From NCBI GenBank assembly GCA_032622095.1, contig CP136061.1, positions 22,570,991-22,634,990 on the forward strand: a stretch of 64,000 nucleotides of DNA, in the 5' to 3' direction. Origin of the DNA: Siphonodentalium dalli. Lineage: Eukaryota; Mollusca; Scaphopoda; Gadilida; Siphonodentaliidae. The notes beneath the pieces were generated by a model, which worked only from the letters and a program-made list of their open reading frames with translations, did no database searches and had not been told where the DNA came from. A program made the translations under genes and the position numbers. Shown one piece after another: positions 4,263-30,673 of the stretch (positions within the stretch are counted from its first letter, which is position 1; every line of letters begins with the position of its first letter).

Positions 4263-5117
4263 GAAGTTATAACAAGTGTACTCACCCGCGGTCCTCTGCC
4301 TTGTAATGCTGATGAAGTGATATACTTCACCCATCTAAGTTATAACGACTGTACTCACCCGCAGTCCTCTGCCTTGTAATGCTGATGAAGTGATATACTT
4401 CACCCATCTAAGTTATAACGACTGTACTCACCCGCAGTCCTCTGCCTTGTAATGCTGATGAAGTGATATACTTCACCCATCTAAGTTATAACGACTGTAC
4501 TCACCCGCAGTCCTCTGCCTTGTAATGCTGATGAAGTGATATACTTCACCCATCTAAGTTATAACGACTGTACTCACCCGAAGTCCTCTGCCTTGTAATG
4601 TTGATGGAGTGATATACTTCACCCATCTAAGTTATAACGACTGTACTCACCCGCAGTCCTCTGCCTTGTAATGCTGATGAAGTGATATACTTCACCCATC
4701 TAAGTTATAACGACTGTACTCACCCGCAGTCCTCTGCCTTGTCATGCTGATGAAGTGATATACTTCACCCATCTAAGTTATAACGACTGTACTCACCCGC
4801 AGTCCTCTGCCTTGTAATGCTGATGAAGTGATATACTTCACCCATCTAAGTTATAACGACTGTACTCACCCGCAGTCCTCTGCCTTGTAATGCTGATGAA
4901 GTGATATACTTCACCCATCTAAGTTATAACGACTGTACTCACCCGCAGTCCTCTGCCTTGTAATGCTGATGAAGTGATATACTTCACCCATCTAAGTTAT
5001 AACGACTGTACTCACCCGCAGTCCTCTGCCTTGTAATGCTGATGAAGTGATATACTTCACCCATCTAAGTTATAACGACTGTACTCACCCGCAGTCCTCT
5101 GCCTTGTAATGCTGATG
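4263..5117. repeat. 73-bp tandem array, about 11.7 copies
   Basis: The period is exactly 73 bp (for example CTCACCCGCAG at 4281 and 4354). Units are nearly identical, with few substitutions (one unit has CCCGAAGTCC, one has TTGTCATGCTG). Such homogeneity implies recent expansion. The last unit breaks off 48 bp before the probable splice acceptor of the exon at 5165, so the array would lie in the preceding intron. Confidence 0.95.
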
Positions 5118-5164
5118 ACATGGGAGTGCTGCTTGCTTGTATTTCCTAATATCACACTCATCAG

Positions 5165-5345
5165 CACTGCTGGTGGTCCCTGTAACGCGAAGGAAGAGTT
5201 ACGCAAAAGTGTCCAGTTACGAACTCATTCGCATTGTATAGATGGTGTGAGACAGATGGTGGACTACATGAAGGGAGAGCTGTATGGCCCACTCAAAAAA
5301 GATCTCAGCCTCACTATATATGGTACATTTTTTCAAGAGGGCTGA
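5165..5345 (+). CDS. Probable terminal exon of an unidentified gene
   Basis: An acceptor ACTCATCAG ends at 5164. From there one frame (phase 2) stays open to TGA at 5343-5345 and gives about 60 residues, beginning TAGGPCNAKEELRKSVQLRT and ending LSLTIYGTFFQEG. It has two cysteines and a balanced composition. It is followed 88 bp later by AATAAA and then by an A-run, as expected for a last exon or the 3' end of a processed copy. No upstream exon could be identified because the 73-bp array occupies the preceding kilobase. The family is unknown. The exon-like composition and poly(A) signal are the only evidence. Confidence 0.4.
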
Positions 5346-8469: not shown

Positions 8470-8473
<4 letters not shown>

Positions 8474-10160
8474 CATTCAGACTGGATAATTTCCTGGTAA
8501 TGCACGCTCAACCAGAGACATACACAGGAAAAACTGACAGCTTAAGAATTCAGACAAAAAAGGACACGGAAATAAACAAAATCAGAAAAGAAGCTATAAA
8601 ACATAAAATGAAATTGAAGAAAAAAACATCATTCAAGATTAAATGAAAACACAGTTAAATTCACGATAAATAAGCTATACATTTAAATATAAAGAGCGTT
8701 AAACTGATGTGAAACACTCCAGTAGGATGACCAAATAGAAATGGTGAATAATCTTCCTCAAAGTAGTTACATTTTACAAATATTATTTCCAAATTCACAA
8801 CACACACCGTCATTCTTATATATTATTGAAATGCATTGACTTTCGATGGCGGAATCATTTTCGTAAATTTATCGTCGATAGTTGCGTCCCGAATCTAGAC
8901 GTAAATATTTACATTTGAGCGTAGTTCTGACGGTGTTTTCTTTGGAGTGGTAAGATCGATTTGCTTCAGATTTTTGGCTCTGATAGTAGAATGCTACATT
9001 CTCCCAGTTGGCATGGTGCCTGAATACTATATTACCAGCTTCACGTACCAGAACAAGTCCATAATATGTCTTTAAGTTCTATTATATGCAAGTCCTGATA
9101 AAAAAAATTAGACAGCCCTAATATATGCGCTGTTCTGCGTCACACCCGCGTATAACATTATTTCCAATGTACATGTATTATCATAAGAATAACAATAAAT
9201 CTTCCTTCTTATTGAGTGCCGCGAAATCCTCGGAAACCGTATATTCTTTTTGAGGACACACTTGTATCTTTACGTTAAGCCTTTCCGAGGTATATAAGTA
9301 ATTCCGTATATGGATATATTATATATTCTCCGGCATATTTCGATCCGAAACAAGAGGCAAAAGATGCTTCGTGCGAATTTAAGATTGCAATGTGTTTCTC
9401 TCCTTGTCATGGAGCAACCTTATATACATGTACATGTACTCACATAATATCACACACGAAATAGCGAACAGAAAAAGTTTGGAATCCATTTCCAATACTG
9501 GAACGAAGTTCTCTCTAATGTACTAACTCAACACGGGAAAACAAAACCGCAGGCACAGGTAATTATTTTGGCATTCGTCCATTGCTTCCGGTAACCATAG
9601 AAACTGTGTTGGATAAACAACTATACTCGCAGTCACGAATGCGAAAACAATGCCACGATTAAATATATTGTGGGTGTATTCCCGTGGTCGCAAGCAAATT
9701 AGATCTTAAATGTCAGAACTGTGCATGAGACTTTTAACACGTGCCAAGAAACGAATAGCGCGCGAATTGTTGCCATCTGCGAAACATGTTACGTGTAGGT
9801 GTTGGTGATGAAACCGGCCGAGTACCTGAGCTCATTCTGTAAATTATACTGTTCTACTATGCCAATTAGTTTGGTACTAGATGGGGATACCAAAGTCTAT
9901 CTCCGGTGCGATATGGGCCGTGACTATGTACCATGTGCACTAGACAACATGCAGTAATGACAGAATGGAACTTATGATAGACATAGGGAGTACGGATTAC
10001 TAGTTGTTTTAAGAGACGCTCGTCGTGGCTTGTTACCAAACATAATTGGGTGTTTGTTATTATTTCCAGTGTAGGGAAGACTCATATTTGACCCAAGAAA
10101 CAAATAGGTGCAGATCAAGAAAGCTCAACACCTCTCTTCCAAAGAATTCCTTCAAGATAA
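8470..10160. other. Intergenic, nothing recognised
   Basis: 1.7 kb of AT-rich DNA without a supportable exon, array or inverted repeat. Open frames here are short and featureless. Confidence 0.4.
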
Positions 10161-10169
10161 ATGAAACTA

Positions 10170-12645: not shown

Positions 12646-13018
12646 TATGGAAGTGGTAGCCCAGTGGTTAGAGTGTCGGATTCGTAATGGTGTTATCGCA
12701 CCGACATGAGTTCGCGTCCCGCCGGTGGACTATCGTCTCCATAATAGTGGCTTGGCCGGATTAAGCGGTGAGTGTGCTATATATAGCCACACGCTGTTTC
12801 AAATCTCGCCCCATGTTACTTGTACTGTGCTCGCTTCGTGGTACCTAGGCGAGAAATATGGACCTGGTTGTTGGGTATTTGTAAGCCGCTCTTGTGAAGC
12901 GCCCATAAAAATACATGGCTGCATGCAGAAGAATCGGCATTACTCAACAGCTGTGCAGCGCTTATATAATATATCGGGGATAGGCGCTATATAAGTACGA
13001 TTATTATAATTATTATAG
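12646..13018 (+). mobile_element. tRNA-derived SINE
   Basis: A tRNA-like head carries a good A box (TGGTAGCCCAGTGGTTAGAG, 12654-12673) and B box (GAGTTCGCGTCCC, 12708-12720) spaced as in tRNA promoters. It is followed by a body of about 270 bp. The element ends in GGCGCTATATAAGTACG and an ATT-rich tail (ATTATTATAATTATTATA), a tail style common in marine invertebrate SINEs. The head does not fold into a convincing functional tRNA, so it is not annotated as a tRNA gene. Possible short direct flanks (TATAGT) are weak. Confidence 0.7.
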
Positions 13019-13345
13019 TATTCGACACAGTGTGCACGGTTCAAATCACTCTAATTGCAATTTTAAACTATAGGGCCCAGGCCAATTTTGAGTAGTATGA
13101 AAATTATGGTTATTGGGTGTCTATAAATGATATTGTTCTAATGGGATCGACTGATCAAAAGTTTCAGGGCTGCGATAATCCGTAAATTTGGTTTAACTGA
13201 TTAAACATATGTTTGTTCCCTAGTTAGAATATAGGCGGACTTCTAGGGATGAGATGTATTATTTCTGACGATGCCAAAAGTTATTATGTACATTAATATG
13301 TAGCGTATTCATTTCTGTTTTAATGAGTGCGGGCGAATTTAAATT
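13019..13345. other. Intergenic, nothing recognised
   Basis: AT-rich spacer without supported features. Confidence 0.4.
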
Positions 13346-13349
13346 TAAA

Positions 13350-13738
13350 GTCGTGTTGAGCCAATGATTTTGAAGTCGTGTTGAACCAATCATTTTGAAG
13401 TCGTGTTGAGGCAAGCATTTTTAAGTAGAGCTAATCATTTTGAAATCTTGTTGAGCCAATCATTTTGATGTCGTGTTGAACCAACCATTTTTGAAGTATT
13501 ATTGAGCCAATTATTTTGAAGTAGTGCTGAGCCAATCAGTTTGAATTATTATTGAGCCAATTATTTTGAAGTAGTGCTGAGCCAATAAGTTTGAAGTACT
13601 AGTAGGGTTAAACCAATTATTTTGAAGTAGTGTTGCACCAATCATGTTGAAGTAGTGTTGAGTTTGAAGTAGTTTTGAGCCAATCGTGTTGAAGTTGTGT
13701 TGAGCCAATCATTTTGAAGTAGTGTGGATCCAATCATT
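13350..13738. repeat. Diverged tandem array of about 24-27 bp
   Basis: Roughly 15 copies of TTGAAGTCGTGTTGAGCCAA plus TCATTT, with substitutions and length changes between copies. It is an old minisatellite. Confidence 0.88.
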
Positions 13739-14268
13739 TTCTGGTATACTTAGATTTTACCATTATACTGATATGTTCTCCGCGATAAGAAGTGCATGTA
13801 GGTGTATTGGAAACAAACTTTAATCCCACGTGGAGGCAGGCCGCTTAAAATATTAAATATTCTTTAAATCAAAGTAAATAAAGTTATTGGTACCTAAAGG
13901 GACAAAACATTACTTATATTCGACATCTTAAATGTACTAAAATCCATTATTTTATTGGTATTCTCTAAATAAATGTTCAGATTTGACATACAATGAAGAC
14001 GATGATGATGGGGGGAATTTCCGATTTTCACCGGATAGATCCATAGAAATGCTTTGTTGAAAATATCTTGCAATTGTTGCCAGGTTGTATGGAAAACGGG
14101 CGTCTGAATCAAGGGGAATAATTGTGGCCGCCCTGCCACAAATGGACTATACCCAGCTTCCGTAGAGCGTGTTTCGAGTTTGATCGCGTTGGCTACCCGA
14201 GACACAAATTGGACACCACGTTACTTTAAACAGGAATTCGATCTTGTCAGAATGGTAGTCACACTGCG
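13739..14268. other. Intergenic, one featureless minus-strand open frame
   Basis: A 103-codon minus-strand frame (13894-14205) is relatively GC-rich and reads plausibly (for example SPFVAGRPQLFPLIQTPVFH). It has no recognisable motif, splice context or partner exon, so it is left as a possible exon only. Confidence 0.3.
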
Positions 14269-14490
14269 ACAGGGACCTGTCTAGAGGGCGACTTGTGAGA
14301 CAGGGACCAGCCTAGAGGGCGACTAGGAAGACATGTAGAGCCCAGATGGCGACTGGGGATACATGGACCAGTCTAGAGGGGGACTAGAGGGACAGGGACA
14401 GGCCTAGAAGGCGACTAGGGAGGCAGTGACCAGCCTAGAGAGCTACTAGGAAGACAGGGACCAGCGTAGAGGGCGACTTGGGACACGTCT
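14269..14490. repeat. 31-bp tandem array, about 7 copies
   Basis: Unit ACAGGGACCAGCCTAGAGGG plus CGACTAGGAAG, with an exact 31-bp spacing (14269, 14300, 14331) and moderate divergence. Confidence 0.9.
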
Positions 14491-14566
14491 GCCCCCTAAA
14501 ATGTGTCTTCTCCATATGTTTGTTCCTGGGAGAAGTGACTACATTCTCATTCTGTTTTCCCGAAAA

Positions 14567-14708
14567 CCGCACATTATCTGCTTATGATATAACTTATTTT
14601 AGGCAGAAAATCTGCTTAGAATAGCCTCATTTTGAGTCGACAATGAGCTGAAAATGAAACGTTCTGGTCACATTATCGACTGTGCGATTCTAAGCAGATA
14701 ATGTGCGG
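14567..14708. repeat. Inverted repeat with 18-bp perfect arms
   Basis: CCGCACATTATCTGCTTA at 14567-14584 is exactly complementary to 14691-14708, with a 106-bp loop. The following GTTTTCACTGTGGCCCGCGC (14764) is shared with 35047, inside the fold-back element at 34.8-35.6 kb. The two places therefore carry related repeat material. Confidence 0.6.
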
Positions 14709-15132
14709 ACAATGACACAAATAAGTTAACTCACGACTTTTTAGGTATGCGCTCTTTAATATGTGTTTTCACTGTGGCCCGCGCCATAAAACGAAATAAC
14801 GGATAAGACTCAAATAATCACATTATGTACCTATATCACAGTATATGCGAGGATATGTTGGTTCTCTCACATAACAGTATGCATATGTCCCAACATCATA
14901 TTTAAAGTATTTACTGATCATAATGGTGTTCTTACTCACTTTTTATAAAACGGCTCATGTGTTACATGATACTTTTTGGATCATAGAATGGTAGGTGGGC
15001 GTGAACATTGAACTTCAGACAGTCCATTTATGATTTATCCCCATTAACCAAACAATGCAAACTACTAATTCTCCCAATTTGAAACCACTGGGTTGGTCCC
15101 TGCACTGTGGTTTTGTCCTGGAGTCTATTGCA
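14709..15132. other. Intergenic, nothing recognised
   Basis: Apart from the shared CACTGTGGCCCGCGCCAT motif noted in the preceding entry, no gene or repeat was recognised. Confidence 0.35.
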
Positions 15133-15491
15133 TCAGACTGTAGTCAGGCCCTTCAATGCAGGGTAAATAATCCATACATTATTACTGGTTGAATAATATA
15201 ACCCGCGCTCGTCACCTAGAATGTGTATGGCGTGTTTCCAGACTTGCGCATCGGGCCAAACCCACTCTAGAAATTTATCAAGGCTATATCTATTTAGGCA
15301 TTGTTTTATCATGTGATGATACCTATACACTCGGCGATCTCCCTGCCATGTTCTTTTAAAAAGGTCAGGGTGTAAGTGAATGTGCTTCTATCACTATTCG
15401 CCCGTAACACGTACCAGATGACATACATATACATGGGTGTGTATGCGTCATGGTCGACATATGGTCGTTGAACCCCGTTCACATTTAACAT
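15133..15491 (-). pseudogene. Possible frameshifted coding remnant, unidentified
   Basis: Two overlapping minus-strand frames follow one another (15491-15309, then 15330-15133). They read as if one frameshift splits a single protein-like sequence: first MYVIWYVLRANSDRSTFTYT and LTFLKEHGREIAECIG, then NRYSLDKFLEWVWPDAQVW and KHAIHILGDERGLYY. The composition looks protein-like (Trp, balanced charges), but no family is recognised. It could equally be chance. The remnant lies just upstream of exon 1 of the secreted-protein gene, on the opposite strand. Confidence 0.25.
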
Positions 15492-15679
15492 CTAATGTAA
15501 GTTTGGCTGTCAGACAATTCCTATACTAACTCCCACATATTGTTCACGTTACCTCGTAGTTTTCATTGTTTGGATAACCGTTATTTCTTGTGTAACCATG
15601 ACTACATGAATAGGTCCGTTCCTTTGTCACGAGTTTGGTCCCATTCTCTTAGCCTTTGCTGTGTGGTTCGGTCGGCGTC

Positions 15680-15725
15680 ATGGATTCTAAGCTAACATTT
15701 TTGGCTATTTCCTGTCTGATGATAT
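15680..15725 (+). CDS. Exon 1 of the secreted-protein gene: signal peptide
   Basis: ATG at 15680 starts MDSKLTFLAISCLMI, and one extra base (T) remains before the donor GTAAGT at 15726-15731. The exon is 46 bp, identical in length and phase to the exon at 50009-50054, and shares its first five residues (MDSKL). This supports both as real exons. Confidence 0.75.
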
Positions 15726-18700
15726 GTAAGTACGATAATCTATCTACACACATTTCTTGGAACATTAAAAAATTCTTATATTATATTATAACATGGGTCA
15801 CACGAATAAATTTGGGCAAATCATAGCGCTTCTGAAAGTACTTAAAATATTTTTCTTTCAAACTACCATACGTAAAATCAGGCTGATATATGGATATTCA
15901 GTTAAAACAAATCGCATCGTTTTGTATTTTTTGTTTTCAAAGTGTCGGGATGTTATAATCAACCAGGTGTTTCACTGACTAGTCATGCAGCAATGTGTTA
16001 CTCTTACTTACCAATACATAGAGAAGGTAACAAAGATATGTTTGCGAGTACATTAAATCATCATCTCTCTAAAAATATCATTTCTAAAAACAATCTCATT
16101 AACCCTTCCATGACTGGATCTTCCAGAAATGTTTCGAAAACCCCGCGCCAATGTATTTTCTTACATATGCGGGTTTCCCCATACGGAGCCTCGCATTTTT
16201 AAGAGAATACATTGGCCGAGTTATATTTATATTGAGCTTGTTAGCCAGTGCATTCTATTATATATTATAAGCGAATGCACTGGCACATGATCGTCGCTAA
16301 TGCTGCACCAGCGCAGCTCCCGTCGTGAACCCCATTAAAGGGTTAAAGCAGCGCGTACTGTTCGTGCATTACATTGGACACGGTAACGAATTACTAATTT
16401 TGCCGCCTTCCTTCGATCACAATAATGATAAATAATAGTAATCCTCATTAAAGGGTTAAATAATAGTAAAGCCCCGAAATACGAATACATAGAGGATCTC
16501 ACATGAGTTTCTATTTTATACGTAATTTATCAACCGAGTTCACTAAATTCGATTTGAGCCGATGTTTACCTCGGCGCTCAAATAGAATTTAGTGGACGAG
16601 GTTGATAAATTACGTATAAAATAGAACGAGTTTGAGATATCTTTTATCACATGATCAAATAAACGCGAAGCAACACGAAGTATTCATCGAAAACAACAAT
16701 CATAAACTTCAGCGATCGCAAGTCATTTAAATAATGGCGTGACGTCATCGCACCCGCTAATATTACACCTGTGTCTTACCAATAATTATGAAGCTGGTTT
16801 TGTGGGTTAATTATGTGATAAAAGGACTTTCAACACCGAAACGACGTGCCGATTTCAATGTTCAACTTTCTGCACACAAAAATGATACAAACGCTCTGTA
16901 CTTTAAAGCCACAGGGCAGTTTGCACTCCAATAATAAACTTATAATGTTTACTTTTGAATTTGTCCTGGTATCGAAATAAGTCGATAAATACCCGAACTA
17001 TCTGTCTAGTATTGTATGTCCCAGAAAGACGCATGGATGATGGAAGTAATAAAAATGCAATTTATAATGTTCACTTGTGAATTTGTCCTGGTATGGAAAT
17101 AGGTCAATAAATACCTTAGTTACCTTTCTATCATTATATGTCACAGAAAGGAGCATGGACGTAATAAAACATACAACTTCAGACACACTATACGGGCCCC
17201 GTATACAAGGCATACAACTGTGCCATATGTGTAAATCAAATTTCTCGAATCGGTAACGGAATATCAGGAAAAGGTACATCAACATTATGTAGTACCATAA
17301 ACATTATGTAGTACCATCAACATTATGTAGTACCACAAACATTTCAGAGCGACGACAGCTCTAGATTTCTTCACACGGTCCACAGTTGCAAGTTTACGCG
17401 ATCGTTGACTAAAAGCATTGAACCGGCACAACAAAAAGATCTCAAATTTATCGAAAAAATAAGCAACAACATGTACAATTTTATGATATCACTGTTGAAA
17501 CTCCGTGAAGTGTACCCATATGCTTGCGACATGTAGCAGGGTTTTGTTGTGTCAATTAGATTAGATTAGATTATTTATTAGTAATGATACAAATATCTAT
17601 ACAATTTTATACTAAAGTTGTCACATGTATACAAATTGAATGAGCAATATTATATGATTATTGATCTTTCGAGTCAGAGTATGATTTTAATCAGACTGGT
17701 TATCACAGTGGAGCATATTTCAAAGTAATTTTATTATATCTTCTCGCTATCAAGCAGGCTAGATATTCTGTGTTACCAATAGACACATCGTGTATACAGA
17801 TGTCCTGAGAAAAGTGTCGCACAAAGTACATCTCTTCGTAATTTATATTCGAACACGTAAGAAATGTCATGTTCTGGTATCAGTGTCACAGCAATTTCGT
17901 CGACTTATTTCGATACCGGGAAAATTCAACGCTAATATCGACAAAATCGTCCACAAGTATGCATTTATAACACACATGCAACGCGATAATCGACAAAACC
18001 ATCCACAAAAGTAACCATTTATAACACAGGCAACGCGAAAATCGACAAAACTATTCACAAGTAACCATTTATATCACACAGGCAACGCGAAAATCGACAA
18101 AACCACCCCAAACTAAGCATTTATGTCACACAGGCAACGCGAAAATCGACAAAATCATACACGAGTAACCATTTATATCACACAGGCAACGCGAAAATCC
18201 ACAAAACCATACACGAGTAATCATTTATATCACACAGGCAATGCGAAAATCCACAAAACCATACACGAGTAACCATTTATATCACACAGGCAACGCGAAA
18301 ATCGACAAAACCATCCACAACTAAGCATTTATGTCACACAGGCAAAGCGAAAATCAATAAACCCATCTACAACTAAGCATGTATACCACACAGGCAACGC
18401 GAAAATCGACGAAACCATCCACAAGTTACCATTTATATCAAACATGCAAAGTGAAAATCGATAAAACCATCCACAAGTAACCATTCATATCACACAGGCA
18501 AAGCGAAAATCCACAAAACCATCCACGAGTAACTATTTATATCACACAGGCAACGCGAAAATCCACAAAATCGTCCACAAATATCCATTCATATCACACA
18601 GGCAAAGCGAAAATCCACAAAACCATCCACGAGTAACTATTTATGTCACACATGCAACGCGAAAATCGACAAAACAATCCACGAGTAACCATTTATAAAT

Positions 18701-21700
18701 ATCAAACATGCAACGCGAAAATCGACAAAACCATCCACAATTAACCATTCATATCACACAGGCAAAGCGAAAATCCACGAGTAACCATTTATATCACACA
18801 TGCAACGCGAAAATCCACAAAACCATCCACATGTTATTCGTTGAAAACCATCACAAAAGATCATATATGCCGCTTGTGGGCGACGGAAGCGAACTTGGAT
18901 GATCTTTATTAGAGGCGATCATATAGGTATTTCTGCTAGGTTGACACAAACTTCCACATATGAAAGTCGATATCTGGCCATCAAAACCACATATTAATGG
19001 GCTCGTGTCCATTCTGATTAAACCACATATTAATGGGCTCATGTGTCCATTCTGATTAAACCTCATATTAATGGGCTCATGTGTCCATTCTGATTAAACC
19101 TCATATTAATGGGCTCATGTGTCCATTCTGAGTAAACCTCCTATTAATGGGCTCATGTGTCCATTCTGATTAAACCTCCTATTAATCGGCTCATGTGTCC
19201 ATTCTGATTAAACCTCCTATTAATGGGCGCATGTGTCCATTCTGATTAAACCTGCTATTAATAGGCTCATGTGTCCATTCTGATTAAACCTGCTATTAAT
19301 GGGCTCATGTGTCCATTCTGATTATACCTCCTAGTAATGGGCTCACGTGTCCATTCTAATTAAACCTCCTATTAATGGGCTCATGTGTCCATTCTGATTA
19401 AACCTGCTATTAATAGGCTCATGTGTCCATTCTGATTAAACCTGCTATTAATGGGCTCATGTGTCCATTCTGATTATACCTCCTAGTAATGGGCTCACGT
19501 GTCCATTCTAATTAAACCTCCTATTAATGGGCTCATGTGTCCATTCTGATTAAACATCCTATTAATGGGCTCATGTGTCCAGTCTGATTAAACCTCATAT
19601 TAACGGGCTCATGTGTCCATTCTGATTAAACCTGCTATTAATGGGCTCATGTGTCGATTCTGATTAAACCTGCTATTAATAGGCTCATGTGTCCATTCTG
19701 ATTAAACCTGCTATTAATGGGCTCATGTGTCCATTCTGATTATACCTCCTAGTAATGGGCTCACGTGTCCATTCTAATTAAACCTCCTATTAATGGGCTC
19801 ATGTGTCCATTCTGATTAAACATCCTATTAATGGGCCCATGTGTCCAGTCTGATTAAACCTGCTATTAATAGGCTCATGTGTCCATTCTGATTAAACCTG
19901 CTATTAATGGGCTCATGTGTCCATTCTGATTATACCTCCTAGTAATGGGCTAACGTGTCCATTCTAATTAAACCTCATATTAACGGGCTCATGTGTCCAG
20001 TCTGATTAAACCTCATATTAACGGGCTCATGTGTCCATTCTGATTAAACCTGCTATTAATGGGCTCATGTGTCCATTCTGATTAAACCTGCTATTAATAG
20101 GCTCATGTGTCCATTCTGATTAAACCTGCTATTAATGGGCTCATGTGTCCATTCTGATTATACCTCCTAGTAATGGGCTAACGTGTCCATTCTAATTAAA
20201 CCTCATATTAACGGGCTCATGTGTCCAGTCTGATTAAACCTCATATTAACGGGCTCATGTGTCCAGTCTGATTAAACCTCATATTAACGGGCCCATGTGT
20301 CCATTCTGATTAAACCTCATATTAACGGGCTCATGTGTCCATTCTGATTAAACCTCATATTAACGGGCTCATGTGTCCAGTCTGATTAAACCTCGTATTA
20401 ATGGGCCCATGTGTCCAGTCTGATTAAACCTCCTATTAATGGGCCCATGTGTCCAGTCTGATTAAACCTCATATTAATGGGCTCATGTGTCCAGTCTGAT
20501 TAAACCTCATATTAACGGGCTCATGTGTCAATTCTGATTAAACATCCTATTAATGGGTTCATGTGTCCATTCTGATTAAACCTCATATTAACGGGCTCAT
20601 GTGTCAATTCTGATTAAACCTCATATTAACGGGCCCATGTGTCCATTCTGATTAAACCTCATATTAACGGGCTCATGTGTCCATTCTGATTAAACCTCAT
20701 ATTAACGGGCTCATGTGTCCATTCTGATTAAACCTCATATTAACGGGCTCATGTGTCCATTCTGATTAAACCTCATATTAATGGGCTCATGTGTCCATTC
20801 TGATTAAACATCATATTAATGGGCCCATGTGTCCATTCTGATTAAACCTCATATTAACGGGCTCATGTGTCCATTCTGATTAAACCTCATATTAACGGGC
20901 CCATGTGTCCAGTCTGATTAAACCTCCTATTAACGGGCCCATGTGTCCAGTCTGATTAAACCTCATATTAACGGGCCCATGTGTCCAGTCTGATTAAACC
21001 TCCTATTAACGGGCCCATGTGTCCATTCTGATTAAACCTCATATTAACGGGCTCATGTGTCCATTCTGATTAAACATCCTATTAATGGGCTCATGTGTCC
21101 ATTCTGATTAAACCTGCTATTAATAGGCTCATGTGTCCATTCTGATTATACCTCCTAGTAATGGGCTCACGTGTCCATTCTAATTAAACCTCCTATTAAT
21201 GGGCTCATGTGTCCATTCTGATTAAACCTCCTATTAATGGGCCCATGTGTCCAGTCTGATTAAGCCTCATATTAACGGGCTCATGTGTCCATTCTGAGTA
21301 AACCTCATATTAACGGGCCCATGTGTCCAGTCTGATTAAACCTCATATTAACGGGCCCATGTGTCCAGTCTGATTAAACCTCATATTATCGGGCCCATGT
21401 GTCCAGTCTGATTAAACCTCCTATTAATGGGCGCATGTGTCCAGTCTGATTAAACCTCATATTAGCGGGCTCATGTGTCCAGTCTGATTAAACCTCATAT
21501 TAACGGGCGCATGTGTCCATTCTGATTAAACCTCATATTAACGGGCTCATGTGTCCAGTCTGATTAAACATCCTATTAACGGTCTCATGTGTCAAATCTC
21601 ATTATGTTGTGAGATTAGAAAACGTACTGATTGTGGTTTTATTATTTCAAATCGGACGGCATCATTAAGCATAATAGGCGATAGTCAATCCGACCCTTAT

Positions 21701-24700
21701 TTCGTTATATAAACTCATTCCATACTACCGGTAATCAACGACCGTTGTTTAACAGAAATAACGCCAGGTCCACTGAAATGTATTGTTGTGCGGAAACGTG
21801 ACCTTCAGTTTGACATCTGGCTTGTCGTCTGTTTACATTCCGGAAAGCGATATTTGTGGATATTGTTGATTTAGTTTGAACACAAATTTCATTAAAATTA
21901 AGTCATCAAAGCGTGTTTGGAACAATAAATAAATCCCCAAATGAGTCCCCAGTTTATAGCGAGATTTACAAACTCGTCCAGTAAATTAGGTCTGGACCCA
22001 GCTGCTCGGCCCAGACCGAATTTACTGGACTCGTTTTGTGAATTTCGCTATAAACTGGGGACTCTTTGGAGAACCTCTATATATGTGTAATATTTTGACT
22101 TATTTATATTCAACAGGGGTAACCGTGAATGCAGAATGTGATATACAAAGATACGATCAGAATAGATTGCCATGCCACAACCTATACAAAGAAGAAGACT
22201 GCGAGTAAGTATAGATATGACAAACGTATATTACCATGCCACAACCTATACAAAGAAGAAGACTGCGAGTAAGTATATATAGATACGACAAACATATATT
22301 ACCATGTCACAACATATGCAAAGCAGAAACCTGTGAGTAAGTATATGTAAAACCAGCTTAGATTGCCAAGTCTAAACATCTACAAAGCAGACGACTGCGA
22401 GTAAGTATAGATACAACCAAAATATACTGTCATGTCACAACCTTTACAAATCAGAAGTGTAAGTTTTGCTATCCCCATAATAGATTGCCATGCCACAACC
22501 TAGCAGAAGACTGCGAGTAGACCAGAACACCGGAGTTATTCGCTAAATGGAGATTTTTGGTTATACGGACATGGCTCATTCAAGCTTCCAAATGTTGTCT
22601 CCATAATTTGGAATGAGGTATAAGATAGGTTGACAACTACACGAAATATTGATATACCGGCTTCATATGATATACCGGCTTCATATGCTCTGAAAAACAC
22701 TGCCCTGTGCCAATGCATTCTCTTATATATGCGAGTCGACCATAGGTCGCCTCGCATATATAAGAGAATGCATTGGCTTAACACATTAAAAATTATAAAA
22801 TTGTTAAAGAATGTAAGAAAAAATGGTAAAAAGTGTTAAAAAAAGAGTTTTTTTAGGCCAATGCATTCTCTTATATATGCGAGGCGACCTATGGTCGACT
22901 CGCATATATAAGAGAATGCACTGGCACAGGGCATAACTGTAACTATCACAATGTGGTCAAGGAGCCGGTTCCAATGATATCCATATTTGTATGGTTCTAT
23001 TGAGACAGACCGAAGATATTTTAGGCTGTTGAAGCTTTATTTGGCCGGTTTTGGCCGATTTGTTGGGTAAAGGGTTAACAGCCTGGCTGGCTGTTGTTTG
23101 TTTGTCTCCCAAATACAATGTTCAGAGTTGTAATTTTTTATTACCTCAATGCGTCTTTCTGCATGTGACATATAATCTCCGTCGAAAAGTAGTTCGAGAA
23201 TTTATCAACTTATATCGATACTGGGCAAATTCAAAAGCGAGTATTATTAGGTGTAGTTTGGCGCGCAAACCGCCAGATGGATTTGTTGATTAGTTTGGTC
23301 TATCTTCGTTTAGCTTCTATGATAATGAATGTATGCCCTCACTACAGTCTAAACGTACACACTGTCATGAACTCGAACTTGTATGATTTTCTGTGATTTG
23401 TGTGTGAGCCGATGTCGTAATAAACATTGAATTACTTCCCAGGAGATATTCCATATTGTAAGCGACGCAAAGCAAAGTCGCCCACAAAGTCACTCATATC
23501 GTGAAATTTCGAGTTGAGACATTCACCTACATTGAAGTACGTTATTAAGGAACATATAACAGCTATAATAAATATATTCCCAGCTTCATTTACAGGTTTT
23601 GTACTGGCGTTAGCCAGAGTAGAGATTCATGGCATGATCTAGTTCGTATACTGCCAGCAGCGATGCATATGAACGGTATAAGAATTCATTCGAAGATGCT
23701 CAGCTAATAAGATCAACACAAACTAATTTGTTGAAAAGTGTTGAACATCAATGAGAATGGGCAGGTCATGCGCACGGGTGGAGATATAAAACAATATGTG
23801 ATCCTCCGTAGGATATGGTATCATGTAATATGTGATCCTCGTCGCAGGAGTCACTCGTGGCTCAGTGAAGGTAGGATCATACATGTATATAAAAATGAGA
23901 GGATATGGTGATCCCATGAAAAGGGGATCACCATATCCTCTCATTTTGATATGTGATCCTAAAATAAGAAAATATTTTTATTAACTAAATAACGGAGATA
24001 TTTGAAGTGTTTTTGACGAAATAACGGAAATATTTGAAGAAGTGTTTTAAAGGTTCGTTTAATAACAGGAAATAGTACCAGGTGACCTTTGAGTTCCGGT
24101 TTGTCGTCTGTTTACATTTCGTGCGATACGTCTCAAAATACTATGGTCTCCAATATTTTTCCAACAAACTATAATGAATGAAGAGTTTGAAAAGTTGTGT
24201 CATTAAATATACGCCATTAAATACGCCAAAGAGTCTTTATTTATCTGGGGACTATGTCTTTACGCGGCCAATATAACGCATAGTTACGTGAAACGTCATC
24301 GCATGCCTTATAGAATCCGATGTTAGTTTCGCGTCCCATTTGTTTATTTAAGTAAGTCTTGTCGAGGTTTTCTATCATGTAATAAATGGAATCTACAACG
24401 ATTCCCCAGTTTATAGCGAAATTTACAAATATCGTCCAGTAAATTAAGTCTGGACATCGCCAAAGTCTCGGTCCAAACCTAATTTACCTGACTCGTTTCG
24501 TAAATTCCGCTATAAACTGGGGACTCGTTGTAGATCCTCAATATATAATCTTCAGTTTTCTCCATGTTTTATTTTCAAAAATTATCTTTAAGTTATCACA
24601 GGGTAAAGGAATAGCCGTCCATTAGACGAGGTGTCCACACACGTCAACACCAGTGAATAATCATTCACAATGGATTTTATTATAATTCGTTTCATATTAC

Positions 24701-27424
24701 ATACAGCACTGCAATTTTATATGAAATAACAGTTAACTGTCAGGCTAAATCTTTGCCCCTATCTACTCATGATAATATACGTCATTGTGTTTCGTTTCAA
24801 CGGATGATATATTGTATCGTGACGTGTGTTGAGGGGGGCGATATAACCATAGCACTGTATTGCCCATGCTGTATCCTTCACAATATTGTATGTGTTCAAT
24901 ATCAATTCGGTCAATGAAACGTATTTCCTTTGTAAATTTATTTCAGCGCACAGCGAGATTGGTATTACTGCATCAAAGAATCATTCAAGAACTGTGACAA
25001 AACGAGATACGTGAAAACAAGAGAATTCATCGAGCAGTCTCTTACGGCCGCACATCGGACATGTGATGGATGTGAGTTTCATTAACCCTAACCCTAATCT
25101 CTTACGGCCGCACACCGGACATGCGATGGATGTGAGTTTCATTAACCCTAACCCTAACCCTAATATCTTACAGCCGCACATCGTACATGCGATGGATGTG
25201 AGTTTCATTAACCCTAACCCTAATCTCTTACGGCCGCACACCGGACATGCGATGGATGTGAGTTTCATTAACCCTATGAGTACTGAAAGCATTCTATCAT
25301 GCAGTTATATAAATATACATTGAAATGATTGGAAGGTTATTTGATATTTCAAGTACACATGATTCGCTTGTAGCGTAATAACTCCAATACACGTACATGT
25401 GACCTGCGTTACTATGATATTGCTATTGAGCTGTACATGTGACCTGCGTTACTATGATATTGCTATTGAGCTGTACATGTGACCTGCATTACTATGCTAT
25501 TGCTATTGAGCTGTACATGGTGGGAACAGTTCGACGGTTTTACGGCGCCAGGCAAACATATACACGTTTATAGATATCGGCGAACGCCTGGGGAAACTTG
25601 TCGCTGTGTGGTAATTTTTGGACAGTTTTCAAGCAAATGTATCAAATAAATGTTATTTTATATGTATACTAGTCCCACATACTAATTTAAGTTATTGGAT
25701 AGTCAGTTGTCAGTGTGTGGCTTGAGTTTACGCCCCGTATCAACATAATTTTGACACGATCCTGTGTGCCACGCGTTGCCCCATCCAATTTGAATTTTAA
25801 ACCAGCCAGTACAGTTTGATAGTTTATAAACTATTAAACTGTACTAGCTGGTTTAAAATTTACTTACTTGCGATTCTGAAACATCTATTATCATAAAGAC
25901 ACTCAGACTCGATAGCAATTCCGAAGCGGTGTTCACAACCTTCCCCACCGAATTTGTGGTCTCCGATACTGAACTCAATAAACTGGGCATGTCATATACG
26001 TGGCGAAACCAAGCTGTTGGTAGCACAAAAACATTTGAAAATGCCATAAAATCAGAATTATGGACATCTATATATCAGACTGGCGTGCATCTATGGAACA
26101 ATCAAATAAATACGCATTGTATAGATGCATAAAACCAAACTTCGGCAGACCAGGATACATATCTCTCGATGATAACAATATCGTCCTGCCACTACTGAGA
26201 TTGAGAACCAGAAACAACCGTCTTCCGGTGGAAACTGGTTCTTGGACAAACACCCCATACTCAGCACGAAGATGCACTCTTTGTATGGAGGAACCCGGCG
26301 ATGAATACCACCTTGTTATGCACTTAATATGCACGGCCCTCTGCTAATTGGTCGGAACGAAGTATTGAAAGCCTACTATCACAACCGACCGAACACAATT
26401 AAATTTCATGACCTCTTCGATACAAATAACAGAAAGATCATAGTAAATCTATCAATATATCTAAAAAAAAAGGCCCAAACACTAATGATCCACTACTGAG
26501 GCTGAACGAAAAATGCCCACCCTCGTGCAACATATGTACAGTGATTCGTCCCACATACATCATATGCCACTAATAATTATACCATAGTATTATCATACAC
26601 ATATGAATATCCACGCATATGAACGTCTACATACAGATGTACAGGTACACCCCCTCGATTCATATCTATATTAATAAATACTTTCTTCTGTGTATTCCCC
26701 CATATTTGATATATATTTATATTATTCTTTCATTTGTAAATGAGGACAATACACATGTAGTACTCATGAATGTCAAATTAGACGATGAGTTTATAATAAT
26801 AAAATTGAATTGAAATTGATGACAAACTCGCCTCGTTATAATGGTTTACAGATTAACTCGCCTCGTTATAATGGTTTACAGATTAACTCGCCTCGTTATA
26901 ATGGTTTACAAACTCGCCTCGTTATAATGGTTTACAGATTAGAGCGACAAACTCGCCTCGTTATAATGGTTTACAGATTAGAGCGACAAACTCGCCTCGT
27001 TATAATGGTTTACAGATTAGAGCGAAAACACATTTCCTTTTCTGCCTTTTGTATCAATTACGGTGAATTGTCCCAAAATCACAATGACACCACATTTAGG
27101 CCGGTTGACGTTCCTATATTTACTTGCGAATTTGCACATATATATATATAACTACGTCATGGAAATAGTCCTACCTAATACAGCTACATTGACGTAATAA
27201 ACGCAGGCTTTATGTAGGCAATACAGGTAGTGAGCGGTGGATAAAACATATTATACTCACACGCATGCTTCATACCTTGTAACACTCACATTATGGACAA
27301 TGTTCTCGATCAATGCCTCATAATGACTTTACTCAATGTTGCTTATTAAATTTCAGGTTCCATCGTTCCGAAAATAGGACTGGTTGTGGCTTGCTTATTC
27401 GGATTCTTCGCTTTTAAGAAGTAA
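15680..27424 (+). CDS. Small secreted or surface-anchored Cys-rich protein, four exons
   Basis: I assembled this gene from splice signals. Exons: 15680-15725 (phase 1 end), 22117-22204, 24947-25071 and 27357-27424. All donors are GT (GTAAGT, GTAAGT, GTGAGT), all acceptors are AG, and the phases join. The product is 108 residues. A signal peptide (MDSKLTFLAISCLMIW then VTVNA) has a likely cut before ECD. The mature part has seven cysteines spaced C-x11-C-x8-C-x8-C-x7-C-x22-C-x2-C, with motifs LPCHNLYKEEDC and DWYYCIKESFKNC. The C-terminus is a hydrophobic tail (IGLVVACLFGFFAF) ending KK. The tail could be a membrane anchor or a GPI signal. The family is not recognised; the helix-friendly cysteine spacing recalls small extracellular helical proteins. 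A paralogous first exon lies at 50009. Splicing is inferred, not observed. Confidence 0.7.
15726..16098. other. Start of intron 1, nothing recognised
   Basis: AT-rich intronic DNA before the first repeat. No additional exon was seen. Confidence 0.4.
16099..16346. mobile_element. Diverged TTAA-flanked double-hairpin MITE
   Basis: TTAA at 16099-16102 and 16343-16346 flank CCCTTCC and AAAGGG ends. Inside are decayed versions of both palindromes: GCCAATGTATTTTCTTACAT to GAATACATTGGC, then GCCAGTGCATTCTATTATAT to GCACTGGC. It is an older relative of the element at 12.1 kb. A second AAAGGGTTAAA lies at 16449. Confidence 0.65.
16496..16640. repeat. Long hairpin, about 60-bp arms
   Basis: TCTATTTTATACGTAATTTA at 16510 is complementary to TAAATTACGTATAAAATAGA ending 16625. 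The arms continue inward through CAACC(G/T)..ACTAAATTC with small changes. The loop is near GCCGATGTTTACCTCGGC. Confidence 0.85.
16980..17290. repeat. Dispersed repeat, two partial direct copies
   Basis: GAATTTGTCCTGGTATCGAA (16959) and GAATTTGTCCTGGTATGGAA (17078) start two copies about 120 bp apart. Each continues through a CAGAAAG(A/G)xGCATGGA phrase. Relatives are at 38670-38860 and, inverted, near 23130-23260. The class is unknown. Confidence 0.55.
17291..17947. other. Intron 1 with retroelement-like tail
   Basis: Short ATTATGTAGTACCA(T/C)(A/C)AAC triplication near 17284-17340. A 90-bp stretch (TTTCAGAGCGACGAC, 17343) is shared with 39314. TTAGATTAGATTAGATTATT at 17559 resembles an antisense retroelement tail. 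No exon was seen. Confidence 0.4.
17948..18835. repeat. 52-bp tandem array, about 17 copies, in intron 1
   Basis: Unit CAGGCAACGCGAAAATCGAC, AAAACCATCCACAAGTAACC, ATTTATATCACA. Starts at 18027, 18079, 18131 and 18183 show the 52-bp step. Copies are moderately diverged. Confidence 0.92.
18985..21600. repeat. 38-bp satellite, about 68 copies, with higher-order blocks
   Basis: Unit CCTCATATTAATGGGCTCAT plus GTGTCCATTCTGATTAAA (38 bp, for example 19035 to 19073). Variant monomers (CCTGCTATTAATAGG; CCTCCTAGTAATGGGCTCAC followed by ATTCTAATTAAA) recur together in the same order near 19.25, 19.40, 19.67, 19.86, 20.08 and 21.11 kb. This is a higher-order pattern laid over the monomer. The array fills 2.6 kb of intron 1 of the secreted-protein gene. 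Confidence 0.95.
21760..22085. repeat. Dispersed repeat with 130-bp hairpin, copy B
   Basis: GGCTTGTCGTCTGTTTACAT (21821) is shared with 24101. The right part is a hairpin: CCCCAGTTTATAGCGA at 21950 is complementary to the end of the arm at 22063, and the inner arms (CCAGTAAATTxGGTCTGGxC) meet near 22005. It ends about 30 bp before the acceptor of exon 2. The sequence immediately upstream of that splice site therefore abuts this element. Confidence 0.7.
22117..22204 (+). CDS. Exon 2 of the secreted-protein gene
   Basis: Acceptor TTCAACAG ends at 22116 and donor GTAAGT is at 22205. With the T left from exon 1 it reads W, VTVNAECDIQRYDQNRL, PCHNLYKEEDC, and leaves GA for the next codon. It holds the signal-peptidase site (VNA|EC) and the first three mature cysteines. 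The 3' half of the exon with its donor is repeated downstream. Confidence 0.7.
22164..22525 (+). repeat. Minisatellite made from exon 2 end plus splice donor
   Basis: Six tandem, diverged copies (near 22164, 22235, 22308, 22355, 22428 and 22485) of the last 40 bp of exon 2, each with the first 25-30 bp of intron 2. Copies 2 to 4 keep an intact GAGTAAGT or GTGAGTAAGT donor, and copy 2 still encodes PCHNLYKEEDCE. None carries an acceptor, so each copy can only act as a 5' splice site decoy or an alternative donor. Confidence 0.85.
22703..23078. mobile_element. Double-hairpin MITE, left end lost
   Basis: The core CCCTGTGCC...GGCACAGGG has palindromes at 22709-22777 and 22857-22925. It is followed by the long arm and the right end TGTTGGGTAAAGGG with TTAA (23075-23078). 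The orientation is opposite to the copy at 12.1 kb. The expected short left arm and TTAA are absent; the sequence before it repeats GATATACCGGCTTCATATG twice. The element lies in intron 2. Confidence 0.82.
23079..23891. other. Intron 2, dispersed-repeat fragments
   Basis: The segment near 23130-23260 is an inverted relative of the repeat at 16980-17290. The 23760-23880 stretch has several GTGATCCTC phrases leading into the hairpin at 23892. No extra exon was seen. Confidence 0.4.
23892..23947. repeat. Perfect 24-bp-arm hairpin
   Basis: AAAATGAGAGGATATGGTGA plus TCCC at 23892-23915 is exactly complementary to 23924-23947. The loop is 8 bp. Confidence 0.95.
24050..24545. repeat. Dispersed repeat with hairpin, copy C (most complete)
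   Basis: Combines the left part shared with 21760-21850, the middle shared with 2915-3265, and a terminal hairpin (CCCCAGTTTATAGCGAAATT at 24404 with its complement ending at 24523). It ends GTAGATCCTCAATATATA. It probably represents the near-full element of this family (about 0.5 kb, no coding capacity). It lies 400 bp before exon 3. Confidence 0.72.
24546..24946. other. End of intron 2, nothing recognised
   Basis: AT-rich intronic DNA leading to a pyrimidine-rich acceptor at exon 3. No repeat was recognised. Confidence 0.4.
24947..25071 (+). CDS. Exon 3 of the secreted-protein gene
   Basis: Acceptor TTTATTTCAG ends at 24946 and donor GTGAGT is at 25072. It reads (D)AQRDWYYCIKESFKNC, DKTRYVKTREFIEQSL, TAAHRTCDG, leaving T for the next exon. 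It supplies three of the seven mature cysteines and most of the charged residues. Its 3' end with donor is tandemly repeated. Confidence 0.72.
25041..25277 (+). repeat. Minisatellite of exon 3 end, donor and TAACCC units
   Basis: Four copies of CTTACGGCCGCACATCGGAC, ATGTGATGGATGTGAGTTTC and ATT, followed by two or three AACCCT units. Each copy keeps the 3' end of exon 3 (LTAAHRTCDG), an intact GTGAGT donor and a short TTAGGG-type telomere-like block. The spacer block is 12-18 bp. The fourth copy ends with a single AACCCT. Confidence 0.9.
25375..25518. repeat. 40-bp tandem repeat, three copies
   Basis: CTGTACATGTGACCTGCGTT plus ACTATGATATTGCTATTGAG is repeated with few changes, in intron 3. 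Confidence 0.9.
25793..25860. repeat. 68-bp near-perfect palindrome
   Basis: AATTTTAAACCAGC..AGTTTA and its complement meet at TTTATAAA with two arm mismatches and essentially no loop. Confidence 0.92.
25863..26510 (+). pseudogene. 3' end of a non-LTR retrotransposon ORF2, frameshifted
   Basis: Frame 1 (about 25869-26047) reads LNKLGMSYTWRNQ. After a frameshift, the next frame gives LRLRTRNNRLPVETGSW and then the zinc-knuckle-like CTLCMEEPGDEYHLVMH, and after another break RNEVLKAYYHNRPNTIKFHD. The order RxRxxNxxLPxETGxW, CxLC, DExH is typical of the region after the reverse transcriptase domain in animal LINEs. No RT or endonuclease domain remains. This is a 5'-truncated, inactive copy inside intron 3. 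The tail up to about 26816 (AATTGAATTGAAATTGA) may be its 3' end. The clade is not assigned. Confidence 0.7.
26818..27025. repeat. Tandem array of about 30/38 bp
   Basis: Six copies of AACTCGCCTCGTTATAATGG plus TTTACAGATT. The last three add AGAGCGAC, so there are two unit lengths. The array lies in intron 3. Confidence 0.9.
27026..27356. other. End of intron 3, nothing recognised
   Basis: Intronic DNA ending in the acceptor ATTAAATTTCAG. No repeat was recognised. Confidence 0.4.
27357..27424 (+). CDS. Exon 4 of the secreted-protein gene: hydrophobic tail and stop
   Basis: Joined to the T of exon 3 it reads CSIVPKIGLVVACLFGFFAF, then KK and TAA (27422-27424). The uninterrupted hydrophobic stretch right at the C-terminus argues for membrane attachment of the product. 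Confidence 0.72.
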
Positions 27425-27912
27425 TCTAAAACGCTATACTACCTCCCATCATCCATGCAGTACAAGTCAGATGTCACGTGGTATACGACCTCCCATCCTC
27501 CAGGCAGTACAAGTCAGATGTCACGTATACCATATTTGGACTTCACTTTCGGCGAATTTATCACAGCCAATCAAGAAACCTATTCAAGTGAAATTGTTAA
27601 TGCCAACATAAATGTGGCACATGCTAATATCAGAACAACAGATGTCATATGATGATTCCATCTGAATACGGGAACTGTGACCAGCAATTTTTGACTTGCA
27701 GTATAATTTTTTGACTTGCAGTATACTTTTTTGACTTGCGGTATACGTTTGTGTAACTCGATCACATTTCTATCATATTATTTCAATAACACATTTAATT
27801 TCATTTACTGAGAAGTTCTCCTTCCTGGTGTGAAAACATGGGCGTCCATTGCAAAATTACTTGCCTATGGATATATCTACCTGGTTATAGAACAGGAGTT
27901 TGTCAAAATGAT
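27425..27912 (+). other. Probable 3' UTR with short tandem duplications
   Basis: GTACAAGTCAGATGTCACGT occurs twice (27460 and 27508) within a duplicated stretch of about 48 bp. TTTTTGACTTGC(A/G)GTATA occurs three times near 27686-27745. No further coding was seen. Confidence 0.45.
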
Positions 27913-27918
27913 AATAAA
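27913..27918 (+). promoter_or_regulatory. Candidate poly(A) signal for the secreted-protein gene
   Basis: First clear AATAAA after the stop codon, about 490 bp downstream, within an AATAAA-rich run (27911-27950). Confidence 0.4.
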
Positions 27919-27975
27919 TAATAAAATAATAATAAATATTTACAAATAGAAACATAATGAAAGACAAGGACTGTA

Positions 27976-28689
27976 ACTAGAGGATTAGTGATTTGACCTA
28001 TAGATTTTTATTTATAATTATTTGACTAGAAAATAGGAAACGGTAAACACGTTATCGATCGTTGCGATCTCCAGATACATTGTTATTAAGACTATTATAC
28101 ATCAATCTGACCGCCTGTGACTTACATTTAGCATCGCATTGAATATTTCACCCTATGTTCTCTTTATATCGCCGCGACGTCAGGTTAATTTGCGATGCGA
28201 TGTCTTCCGATTACGATCGCCCTGTACCAAAAAAAACGGCAGCAGGTGGGATACTGCCACATTATTGTGCCAACGACCTTGGCCTTGGTGGCATGTGATA
28301 AACATACACGATAGTGTTTCCCCCTTGCTATTATGGTCGAAATCTTGTCTGTAGAATAGAAGGTGGAGGTTAGCACCCTCTATCAAGGCCAAGGTCGTTG
28401 ACACAGTATCATGGCAGTATCCTATCTACTGTCATTTTTTTCACAGGGCGATCGTGATCGGAAGACACAATATCGCATCAAACCTGACGTCGCGGGTATA
28501 TAGAGAAAACATAAGGTGATATAGTCAATGCGATGCTAAATGTAAGTCACAATCGGTCAGATTGATGTATAAAAGTCATAATAGCAATGAATCTGGAGAT
28601 CGCAACGATCGATAACGTGTTAACCGTTTCTGATTTTCGTGTTACAAAAAATTAAAACAAATATGACGCAAATCGCTAATCCTCTAGTT
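27976..28689. mobile_element. 714-bp fold-back element
   Basis: Ends AACTAGAGGATTAG(T/C)GATTT are inverted. Inside, long arms (about 28047-28275 and 28388-28622) pair over more than 200 bp, with scattered mismatches and indels. They include ATCGATCGTTGCGATCTCCA and GGCCAAGGTCGTTG. The loop is about 110 bp. There is no coding capacity. A target duplication could not be recognised. Confidence 0.78.
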
Positions 28690-29084
28690 TCGACCCTATT
28701 CTTTATATTACATATATGTATTATCTATATTATATATTTACTATTATTTGTTATCATCTTGTCAAACCCCTGTCGTTGTAGTCAGGATTCTGAGCACAAT
28801 TTGATATTTGAACATGAACATTACAAAATCCTAGAATCTAGACTGGTATCAAGCTGCAATTGTTGATAATTTCGAACCTGAAACCTGAAACCCCATAAGA
28901 TTGTAAAATGTCCACATTTTCTTGCAACTTCATGTGAACATGCCATCAAGTGTTAGAATGGCTCCCATCGCTAATCATTTCAATGCTATTTCACTGTATA
29001 CCAGTGCTTATGATCACACAAATACAGTTGTCCTTTGCTGGATTGCTGAACCAGGATCCATTTTACCCGCAATTACATGGTCAG
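28690..29084. other. Intergenic, open frame cut by the next MITE
   Basis: Near 28830-28860 the phrase TCCTAGAATCTAGACTGGTA matches the repeat at 51.14 kb. A plus frame from about 28940 (RMAPIANHFNAISLYTSAYD and on) is protein-like but unrecognised, and it is interrupted by the TTAA element at 29085. It may be chance. Confidence 0.3.
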
Positions 29085-29500
29085 TTAAAGGGGTAATATA
29101 CACTAAATCTGGCCATTTATGGCACCATCTCCTTTTATACTCAACATAATAGATGCAACAAATGAATGATTTTGAGCCATGGATGAGTACAAAATACAAT
29201 TATGTGCTCTATGAACGATGCAAATAACATGGTAATTATAATGAAAATAAATTTATAACTGGAGTCATAAATTCATTTTCGTTATAATTACCATGTTGTT
29301 TACATCGTTCTAGAGCACATGAGTGTATTTTGCACTAATCCATGGCTTTACCATGGTTAACCAGTGATACACCCAGGTATGTCCTGGTAAACCCCTGGTA
29401 ACCCATGGCTCAAATTCATTCATTTGTTGCATATATTCTGTTGAGTATAAAAAGAGATGGTCCCATAAATGACCGGATTTAGTGTACAGTACCCCTTTAA
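29085..29500. mobile_element. 416-bp TTAA-flanked MITE with central hairpin
   Basis: TTAA at 29085-29088 and 29497-29500. Inverted ends AGGGGTAATATACACTAAAT and its imperfect complement follow. Sub-terminal arms also pair (GAGTATAAAA, CATGGCTCAAA). The middle (29200-29325) forms a strong hairpin around TATAATTACCATGTTxTTTxCATCGTTC. One arm carries extra repeats of ACCC(A/C)(G/T)GGT-type sequence. This is a third TTAA family, with ends unlike those at 2.1 and 12.1 kb. Confidence 0.8.
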
Positions 29501-30673
29501 TGTTAATTTATATATGTATACCCGATTAAGTTATTTACATGTGTTTCCATAACCAGAAATTCCATATATGGTCAAACTACCCGACTTAGAGATAACTTGT
29601 CTTGTCTTGAACATATTTGTTGTGACCCACATATATACGTAGAATATAACACATAATTGTATACACAATAGTGTGGGTACACATTGGATCGGAGCACAAT
29701 TTACCAAAGTTAGTGAGACTCCTCTCCCCTGGCATTCAGCTGCTGATGAGTAAAATCGATGATGTTAAGGATGGAATATGATGAGAGCATTTGTTTGTTA
29801 TTTGTATGGGGGTGACCGAGGGCGGCTACATGTAGGGGCACCGTCACCCAATCAAATCATGCAGATTGTTGTTGTTTTTCGTGGCTGTGACAGCGGGCGA
29901 TGTCTCACATCGATGGGAGTATATAGTGATTACTGTAATCGGATATGATATGATGAATGATTGTAGTTTCGAATAATCGCCTATTCGAGGTATCGCTGTT
30001 GTGCGGTATGCCAAAAAGGATATCTTTGATACCGGTGATGGTCACATTATGCTCGTCTTGTCGTGCCCACATACTGTTTATTGCGACACTATAATGACGA
30101 CACTATTTTAACGATTCGGCGATCGAGATATGTCGACCAACAAACTAAATACTAATATATAGACGTTATACACTCAGAACACACTTGATGGTGGCATAAG
30201 TGAGAACATATTGTTCTAAAAAGGAGTAAGACTAACGCTCTTTGTTATTCGACGCCGACGCCTCAGTTGTGCTTCTGATGCTATAAATAACCCAAGGACA
30301 GAACATACGAGCAACATTGGACATTGGACACTTCACCAGACTTAAGAATTGGCTGATTATTTTATTGTTCTGATGAAAACTCAAGTTATTATTATCCGAT
30401 AGCTTTGAAATTTAGTATATTAATTAATCCAACATACAGGTCGAGTTCGAATTTGGTTCTGACTGAGTTATGCTTTTTTTCGACTTAAAATGTGCCGATT
30501 ATTTTTTATGTCCGAATCATAAGTTAAGGGTCAGCAGCACGTTTTCCCAATTTGTTTTATTTCAAAATATATTTTCTCAAAACAAGCGATTATTGTGACG
30601 CAATATTATAAGAACTGTCGATTAGCTGAACATTATAACCACATTTACTATAATTGTATGCCACGATACACAG
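29501..30673. other. Intergenic, nothing recognised
   Basis: 1.2 kb without a supportable exon, array or inverted repeat. Confidence 0.4.

Follow-up and report, generated by a model that had tools for sequence, protein, structure and literature searches.

Tandem arrays carrying candidate splice donors at exon ends of two paralogous genes in the scaphopod Siphonodentalium dalli

How the spliceosome selects one of several identical donors lying side by side has been studied mostly in artificially duplicated constructs. A natural repeat is present in the human gene IFI6 (6-16); its unit is reportedly short (12 bp) and in frame, and the use of later donors is said to lengthen the protein. The excerpts of two reports describe this repeat as a minisatellite that supplies several splice donors to the transcript (PMC2572611, PMC3618361). 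In the polyubiquitin gene UBC, an array of dual-specific splice sites undergoes a stochastic choice that changes the product; according to the excerpted text, each site can work in both roles, donor and acceptor, and splicing removes entire coding monomers (PMC10809524). Among the matches listed from the open-licence literature, no splice-site array other than those of IFI6 and UBC was found. Introns can also be gained by the tandem genomic duplication of an AGGT segment, as outlined in the excerpt of a review (PMC3443670), and for intron 11 of PAH the excerpted report describes the binding of U1 downstream of the natural donor, at a single non-canonical site that has an enhancing effect (PMC5933811).

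The window studied here is a stretch of 64,000 nucleotides from the scaphopod mollusc Siphonodentalium dalli (assembly GCA_032622095.1, contig CP136061.1, positions 22,570,991 to 22,634,990 of the forward strand). It carries members of a small gene family, designated A, B and C. The nearest precedent of the arrays found in genes A and B would be, by analogy, IFI6: as in that gene, tandem arrays lie over exon-intron junctions (22142-22457, 25038-25276 and 4264-5118) and several units have an intact donor. In contrast with the features ascribed to IFI6, the donors are 58-73 bp apart, the later ones run into a stop codon, and three exon ends of two paralogues are affected. Neither this recurrence at three exon ends of two paralogues nor the automatic stop was found among the matches listed from the open-licence literature. 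As in the excerpt on UBC, tandem repeats each hold a splice site, but the units of genes A and B carry a donor and few crude acceptor candidates, and the later copies lie in the modelled intron. The intron gain outlined in the review excerpt also involves a tandemly duplicated segment bearing a splice signal; here, however, an intron in the same phase is present in both paralogues, and its donor was multiplied with no new intron. With PAH, as far as its excerpt goes, the locus shares a U1-binding site shortly inside the intron (putative in our case), although there are up to eleven further consensus donors as against one non-canonical site. Two related genes at this locus present natural rows of 4, 5 and 12 intact donors, and the use of any donor but the first would both lengthen the transcript and introduce an early stop. 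Should the first donor always be used, position alone would decide; otherwise the number of repeat copies could directly adjust the output of the gene. We consider it rather probable (about 0.6) that the arrays are minisatellites seeded at exon ends and tolerated since splicing takes the first, exon-proximal donor with sufficient frequency, the later copies being largely passive.

Gene A was modelled from the following exons:

15680..15725, plus strand: gene A exon 1 (coding part), with the start codon and a signal-peptide-like stretch; donor GTAAGT at 15726
22117..22204, plus strand: gene A exon 2, 88 nt, phase 1 in and phase 2 out; AG/GT borders, four-exon open frame, homologous exon in gene B
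24947..25071, plus strand: gene A exon 3, 125 nt, phase 2 in and phase 1 out; open frame, AG/GT borders
27357..27424, plus strand: gene A exon 4 (coding part), with a hydrophobic C-terminal tail and the stop; open frame, AG border

These four exons span 15680-27424 and give 108 codons, with introns of 2.3-6.4 kb, all three of which follow the GT-AG rule. Exon 1 is the sole ATG-to-GTRAG candidate (12-40 codons, phase 1) on the plus strand of 8000-22116, and exon 1 of genes B and C is similar to it; exon 4 is the top-scoring tail-exon candidate within 25100-30000. Frame, start, stop and 6/6 splice dinucleotides have been kept although the copies of the array at the end of exon 2 differ by 13-34%. 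When unconstrained drift of 5, 8, 10 and 13% per lineage was simulated, with indels left out of the count, the integrity of gene A survived in 17.7, 5.1, 3.1 and 0.9% of cases, respectively. Judged by its sequence, gene A is a real gene. The encoded protein is hydrophobic at its start and in its tail and rich in cysteine in between, and on our own reading, made without a prediction tool, the two ends would be a signal peptide and a membrane or GPI anchor. No match above threshold was obtained for it in Pfam (best E 0.045, 14 bits against a cut-off of 27) or among the PDB sequences (best E 0.48).

Several further repeats lie in the introns of gene A and elsewhere in the window. A 69-copy minisatellite with a 38-bp unit (18984-21604) occupies much of intron 1, ahead of exon 2. 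By eye, inverted repeats with the arm CCAATGCATTCTCTTATATATGCGAG are seen at 1190-1550, 12300-12555 and 22716-22934, intron 2 of gene A included, and resemble non-autonomous DNA transposons; a related inverted repeat (CAGTTTATAGCGA...) is located at 21936-22075, just upstream of exon 2, and recurs at 24395-24530, upstream of exon 3.

The other members of the family are represented by:

9444..9489, minus strand: gene B exon 1, MDSKLFLFAISCVIL; donor GTGAGT at 9443; the better of two candidates in the scanned stretch
5089..5179, minus strand: gene B exon 2, 91 nt, intron phases as in gene A exon 2; tblastn E 5e-8
50009 onwards, within 50009-50421, plus strand: gene C exon 1, MDSKLLLLVFSCVVL; donor GTAAGT at 50055

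Genes A and B are placed head to head, with their start codons ~6.2 kb apart. In exon 1 they share 33/46 nucleotides and the same phase, and the encoded peptides are 60% identical (MDSKLFLFAISCVIL versus MDSKLTFLAISCLMI); the BLOSUM62 score of this pair is 47, while 300 shuffled peptides reached at most 38 over the whole minus strand. In exon 2, the two genes differ at ~13 of 15 synonymous sites but only at 20 of ~69 nonsynonymous ones (pS 0.86 versus pN 0.29; Fisher p 5e-5), which indicates that this exon is under purifying selection in both genes. The exon 2 proposed by the initial annotation was therefore placed correctly, given that it belongs to an intact four-exon frame and has a paralogous exon with the same intron phases and this excess of synonymous change. 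A possible short exon 2 remnant of gene C starts, by eye, at 50380 and runs into a dispersed repeat that was also matched at 2361-2403 and 7300-7342. A search for relatives in viral and prokaryote contigs found none, as expected for a spliced gene.

These data bear on the idea that one or both copies are pseudogenes and that the arrays mark the relaxed selection of dying genes, which we regard as improbable. Gene C, the third member of the family, does look broken, being reduced to exon 1 and the exon-2-like remnant (by eye) beside the dispersed repeat, and the window yielded neither exon 3 nor exon 4 of gene B: exon 3, sought in bases 1-4263, gave a best score of 28 against a shuffle mean of 30, and there is no clear exon 4. 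However, gene B may simply run past the window edge at base 1, and the intact frame, start, stop and splice dinucleotides of gene A, as well as the purifying selection on exon 2 of both genes, argue against decay, which may fit gene C but not gene A.

Three arrays cover the exon ends of genes A and B:

22142..22525, plus strand: gene A exon 2 donor array, in which the exon 2 end and its donor occur as six diverged copies (TRF, copy alignment, donor list)
25038..25276, plus strand: gene A exon 3 donor array, in which the final ~34 bp of exon 3 and GTGAGT occur four times (TRF, donor list)
4264..5118, minus strand: gene B exon 2 donor array, in which a 73-bp unit (30 bp of exon end, 43 bp of intron) occurs twelve times (TRF, 98% matches)

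At exon 2 of gene A, TRF reported the stretch 22162-22457 (period 64, 4.6 copies, score 311) and also 22142-22456 (period 132, score 346), whereas the highest score over 30 dinucleotide shuffles of the window was 67. Aligned on the donor, with the omission of four bases between copies 2 and 3 (22278-22281), the six copies show a pairwise identity of 0.66-0.87, so that the six tandem copies of exon end and donor proposed earlier are borne out by both approaches. The unit had been described as ~40 bp of exon end, GTAAGT and a little intron; the repetition holds, but the unit appears to be larger, the alignment suggesting ~55 bp of exon plus ~9 bp of intron. The most diverged and weakest-aligned part is formed by the first ~20 exon bases. 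In agreement with the claim that several copies keep an intact donor and form a row of 5' splice sites, GTAAGT is intact in five of six copies (22205, 22269, 22337, 22401 and 22459), which places these potential 5' splice sites one after another at the end of a coding exon; a GTGAGT at 22333 overlaps the donor at 22337, and the sixth copy has lost its donor (GTAGAC at 22517). Between donors 1 and 2 there is no difference over the 35 nt that precede the cut and the first 9 nt of intron. An exact stretch of 24 nt is common to copies 1 and 6, so sequence exchange among copies is possible, which makes it difficult to date the array. The donors read GA/GTAAGT (the slash marks the cut) and not AGGT. 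By a crude filter, three other AGs of the array (22369, 22482 and 22502) pass as acceptors, with 9-10 pyrimidines in the preceding 15 bases compared with 10 in each of the three true acceptors. The initial annotation had stated that no copy has an acceptor, which, given these candidates, may or may not hold.

The array at exon 3 lies in the same gene, outside the region to which the initial annotation had drawn attention. Its donors (25072, 25132, 25198 and 25258) are 4/4 intact with a spacing of 60, 66 and 60 bp, and each of the first three copies is followed by a telomere-like AACCCTAACCCTAA stretch. In gene B the donors are 12/12 intact, all reading CGG/GTGAGT, from 5088 (first) to 4285 (last). 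Both arrays had been missed in the earlier interpretation, which thus was only partly right: the row of donors and the exon call stand, and the proposed variation in protein length, considered below, does not.

An ancestral array common to genes A and B was considered and judged the less likely origin. The alignment of the inter-donor parts is weak, with p values of 0.148, 0.026, 0.121 and 0.076 in four segments and of 0.33 when a hand-typed consensus was used. Since this weak alignment is accompanied by differing unit lengths (64 versus 73 bp) and differing exon breakpoints, separate origins of the two arrays are likelier, though not proven.

The telomere-like stretches of the exon 3 array consist of two or three CCCTAA repeats after each of the first three copies (25072-25276) and might record the repair of a break at the donor.

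Exon 2 leaves in phase 2, so GA/GTAAGT is read as GAG TAA; any GTAAGT or GTGAGT in phase 2 gives a stop in this way, and the same would be true of gene B. The initial annotation had stated that several copies keep the reading frame, and had proposed that later donors either alter protein length through the repeat copies or lead into intronic stops. The kept frame and the altered length are contradicted by the sequence: none of the five later donor choices at exon 2 keeps the frame, and 5/5 give the same truncation at 45 residues, with TAA right after the first exon copy. Likewise, 0/3 later donors of exon 3 keep the frame and with 3/3 the protein stops at 90 residues, short of the hydrophobic tail. 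The stop is 46 nt before the last junction when donor 2 of exon 3 is used, and 112 and 172 nt before it for the other later donors. Because later donors meet a stop, extra repeat copies cannot enter the protein, and only the share of truncated products can change. Later donors as protein-length variants of gene A are thus ruled out by a stop at 8/8 later donors of exons 2 and 3. The later copies of exon 2 were also considered as selected coding repeats: the pS/pN values against copy 1 are 0.14/0.09 (copy 2), 0.41/0.20 (copy 3) and 0.32/0.22 (copy 4), figures that rest on 4 to 10 changes each, too few for a decision, with copy 1 itself constrained.

The truncations could be taken as a switch based on unproductive splicing and tuned by copy number, in which some transcripts take later donors and yield truncated or degraded products, so that array length sets expression. 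The uniformity of the truncations at both exons fits this proposal, as do the distances from the stops of exon 3 to the last junction; donor 2 of exon 3 would yield the 90-residue form devoid of the hydrophobic tail, a possible soluble form. Work in vitro with duplicated donors often found the intron-proximal copy to be used, which also counts in its favour. A stop after a GTRAGT donor in phase 2 is nevertheless automatic and needs no selection, and we consider such a switch quite unlikely.

Another function of the arrays would be to aid splicing, if the extra U1 snRNP sites downstream of the true donor define a short exon or block premature 3' end processing. The exons are in fact short (88 and 125 nt) amid long introns, three arrays are present in two genes, and PAH exon 11 is better defined owing to a U1 site a short way beyond its true donor, according to the excerpted report (PMC5933811). 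Moreover, across copies c1-c5 of the gene A exon 2 array the donor hexamer is the best conserved of 59 six-column windows (permutation p 0.013), and c5 has kept GTAAGT with no exon end just upstream. When the sixth copy is included, however, the hexamer ranks 9/59 (p 0.11); this conservation test was run on the exon 2 array of gene A, not on the two more uniform arrays. The extra sites also resemble competent donors and not mere U1 sites; the U1 pairing energies of the donors, computed with a nine-base U1 end, are a rough guide only. On balance, a splicing aid of this kind is unlikely.

For the preferred reading, passive minisatellites, we propose that tandem duplication over exon-intron junctions of this small gene family would have seeded the arrays. 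As each duplicated unit happens to hold an exon end and a 5' splice site, amplification gives a row of complete donors that extends into the intron. The remaining donors would sit within the intron and leave with it, and the choice of a later one would produce a transcript with an early stop. The integrity of gene A in spite of the 13-34% divergence among copies means that donor 1 is probably, but not certainly, used enough to make protein. Given that donors 1 and 2 of exon 2 are locally identical, local sequence cannot explain a choice of donor 1, and position or more distant sequence would have to decide. In favour of the passive reading, the donors are intact in 5/6 (gene A exon 2), 4/4 (gene A exon 3) and 12/12 (gene B exon 2) copies, exon 2 of genes A and B shows purifying selection, and array units in general are not enriched in GTRAGT. 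The local identity of donors 1 and 2 and the possible exchange between copies weigh against it, as does the finding that 3/6 of the placed family donors fall in the first unit of an array, more than random placement would give, which a purely passive origin does not predict.

This last point was evaluated over the whole window, which contains 37 arrays (period 12 or more, merged) that cover 17.8% of it. GTRAGT is present in the unit consensus of 3/37 merged arrays, all on exon ends of this gene family, while 1.8 are expected from shuffled units (P 0.27), so that a general attraction of arrays to donors is unsupported. In a fourth array (60669-62044), GTRAGT occurs twice in about 20 copies and is absent from the consensus. 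Within the family, the arrays hold 3/6 placed donors (gene A exons 2 and 3 and gene B exon 2, but not exon 1 of genes A, B and C) and 0/5 acceptors, one of which, in gene C, is doubtful. The probability of a donor lying in the first unit of an array in 3/6 cases is 5e-4, and 0.008 for 2/5 when the donor already given by the initial annotation is left out; with plain array coverage as the measure, little excess is left (P 0.07 and 0.22, respectively). As the measure of the excess was picked afterwards, the over-representation of family donors in arrays is taken as suggestive. A broader proposal built on this recurrence is that donor-anchored minisatellites are kept in the family since the repeated donors recruit extra U1 or set the unproductive or tail-less share, with an array length that tunes output and varies between individuals; we hold this to be doubtful.

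Elsewhere in the window, the minus strand of 36301-37614 contains a long open frame of 438 codons. It matches the ligand-binding domain of neurotransmitter-gated ion channels (E 8.5e-41) and, of the membrane region, the first third (E 5e-7).
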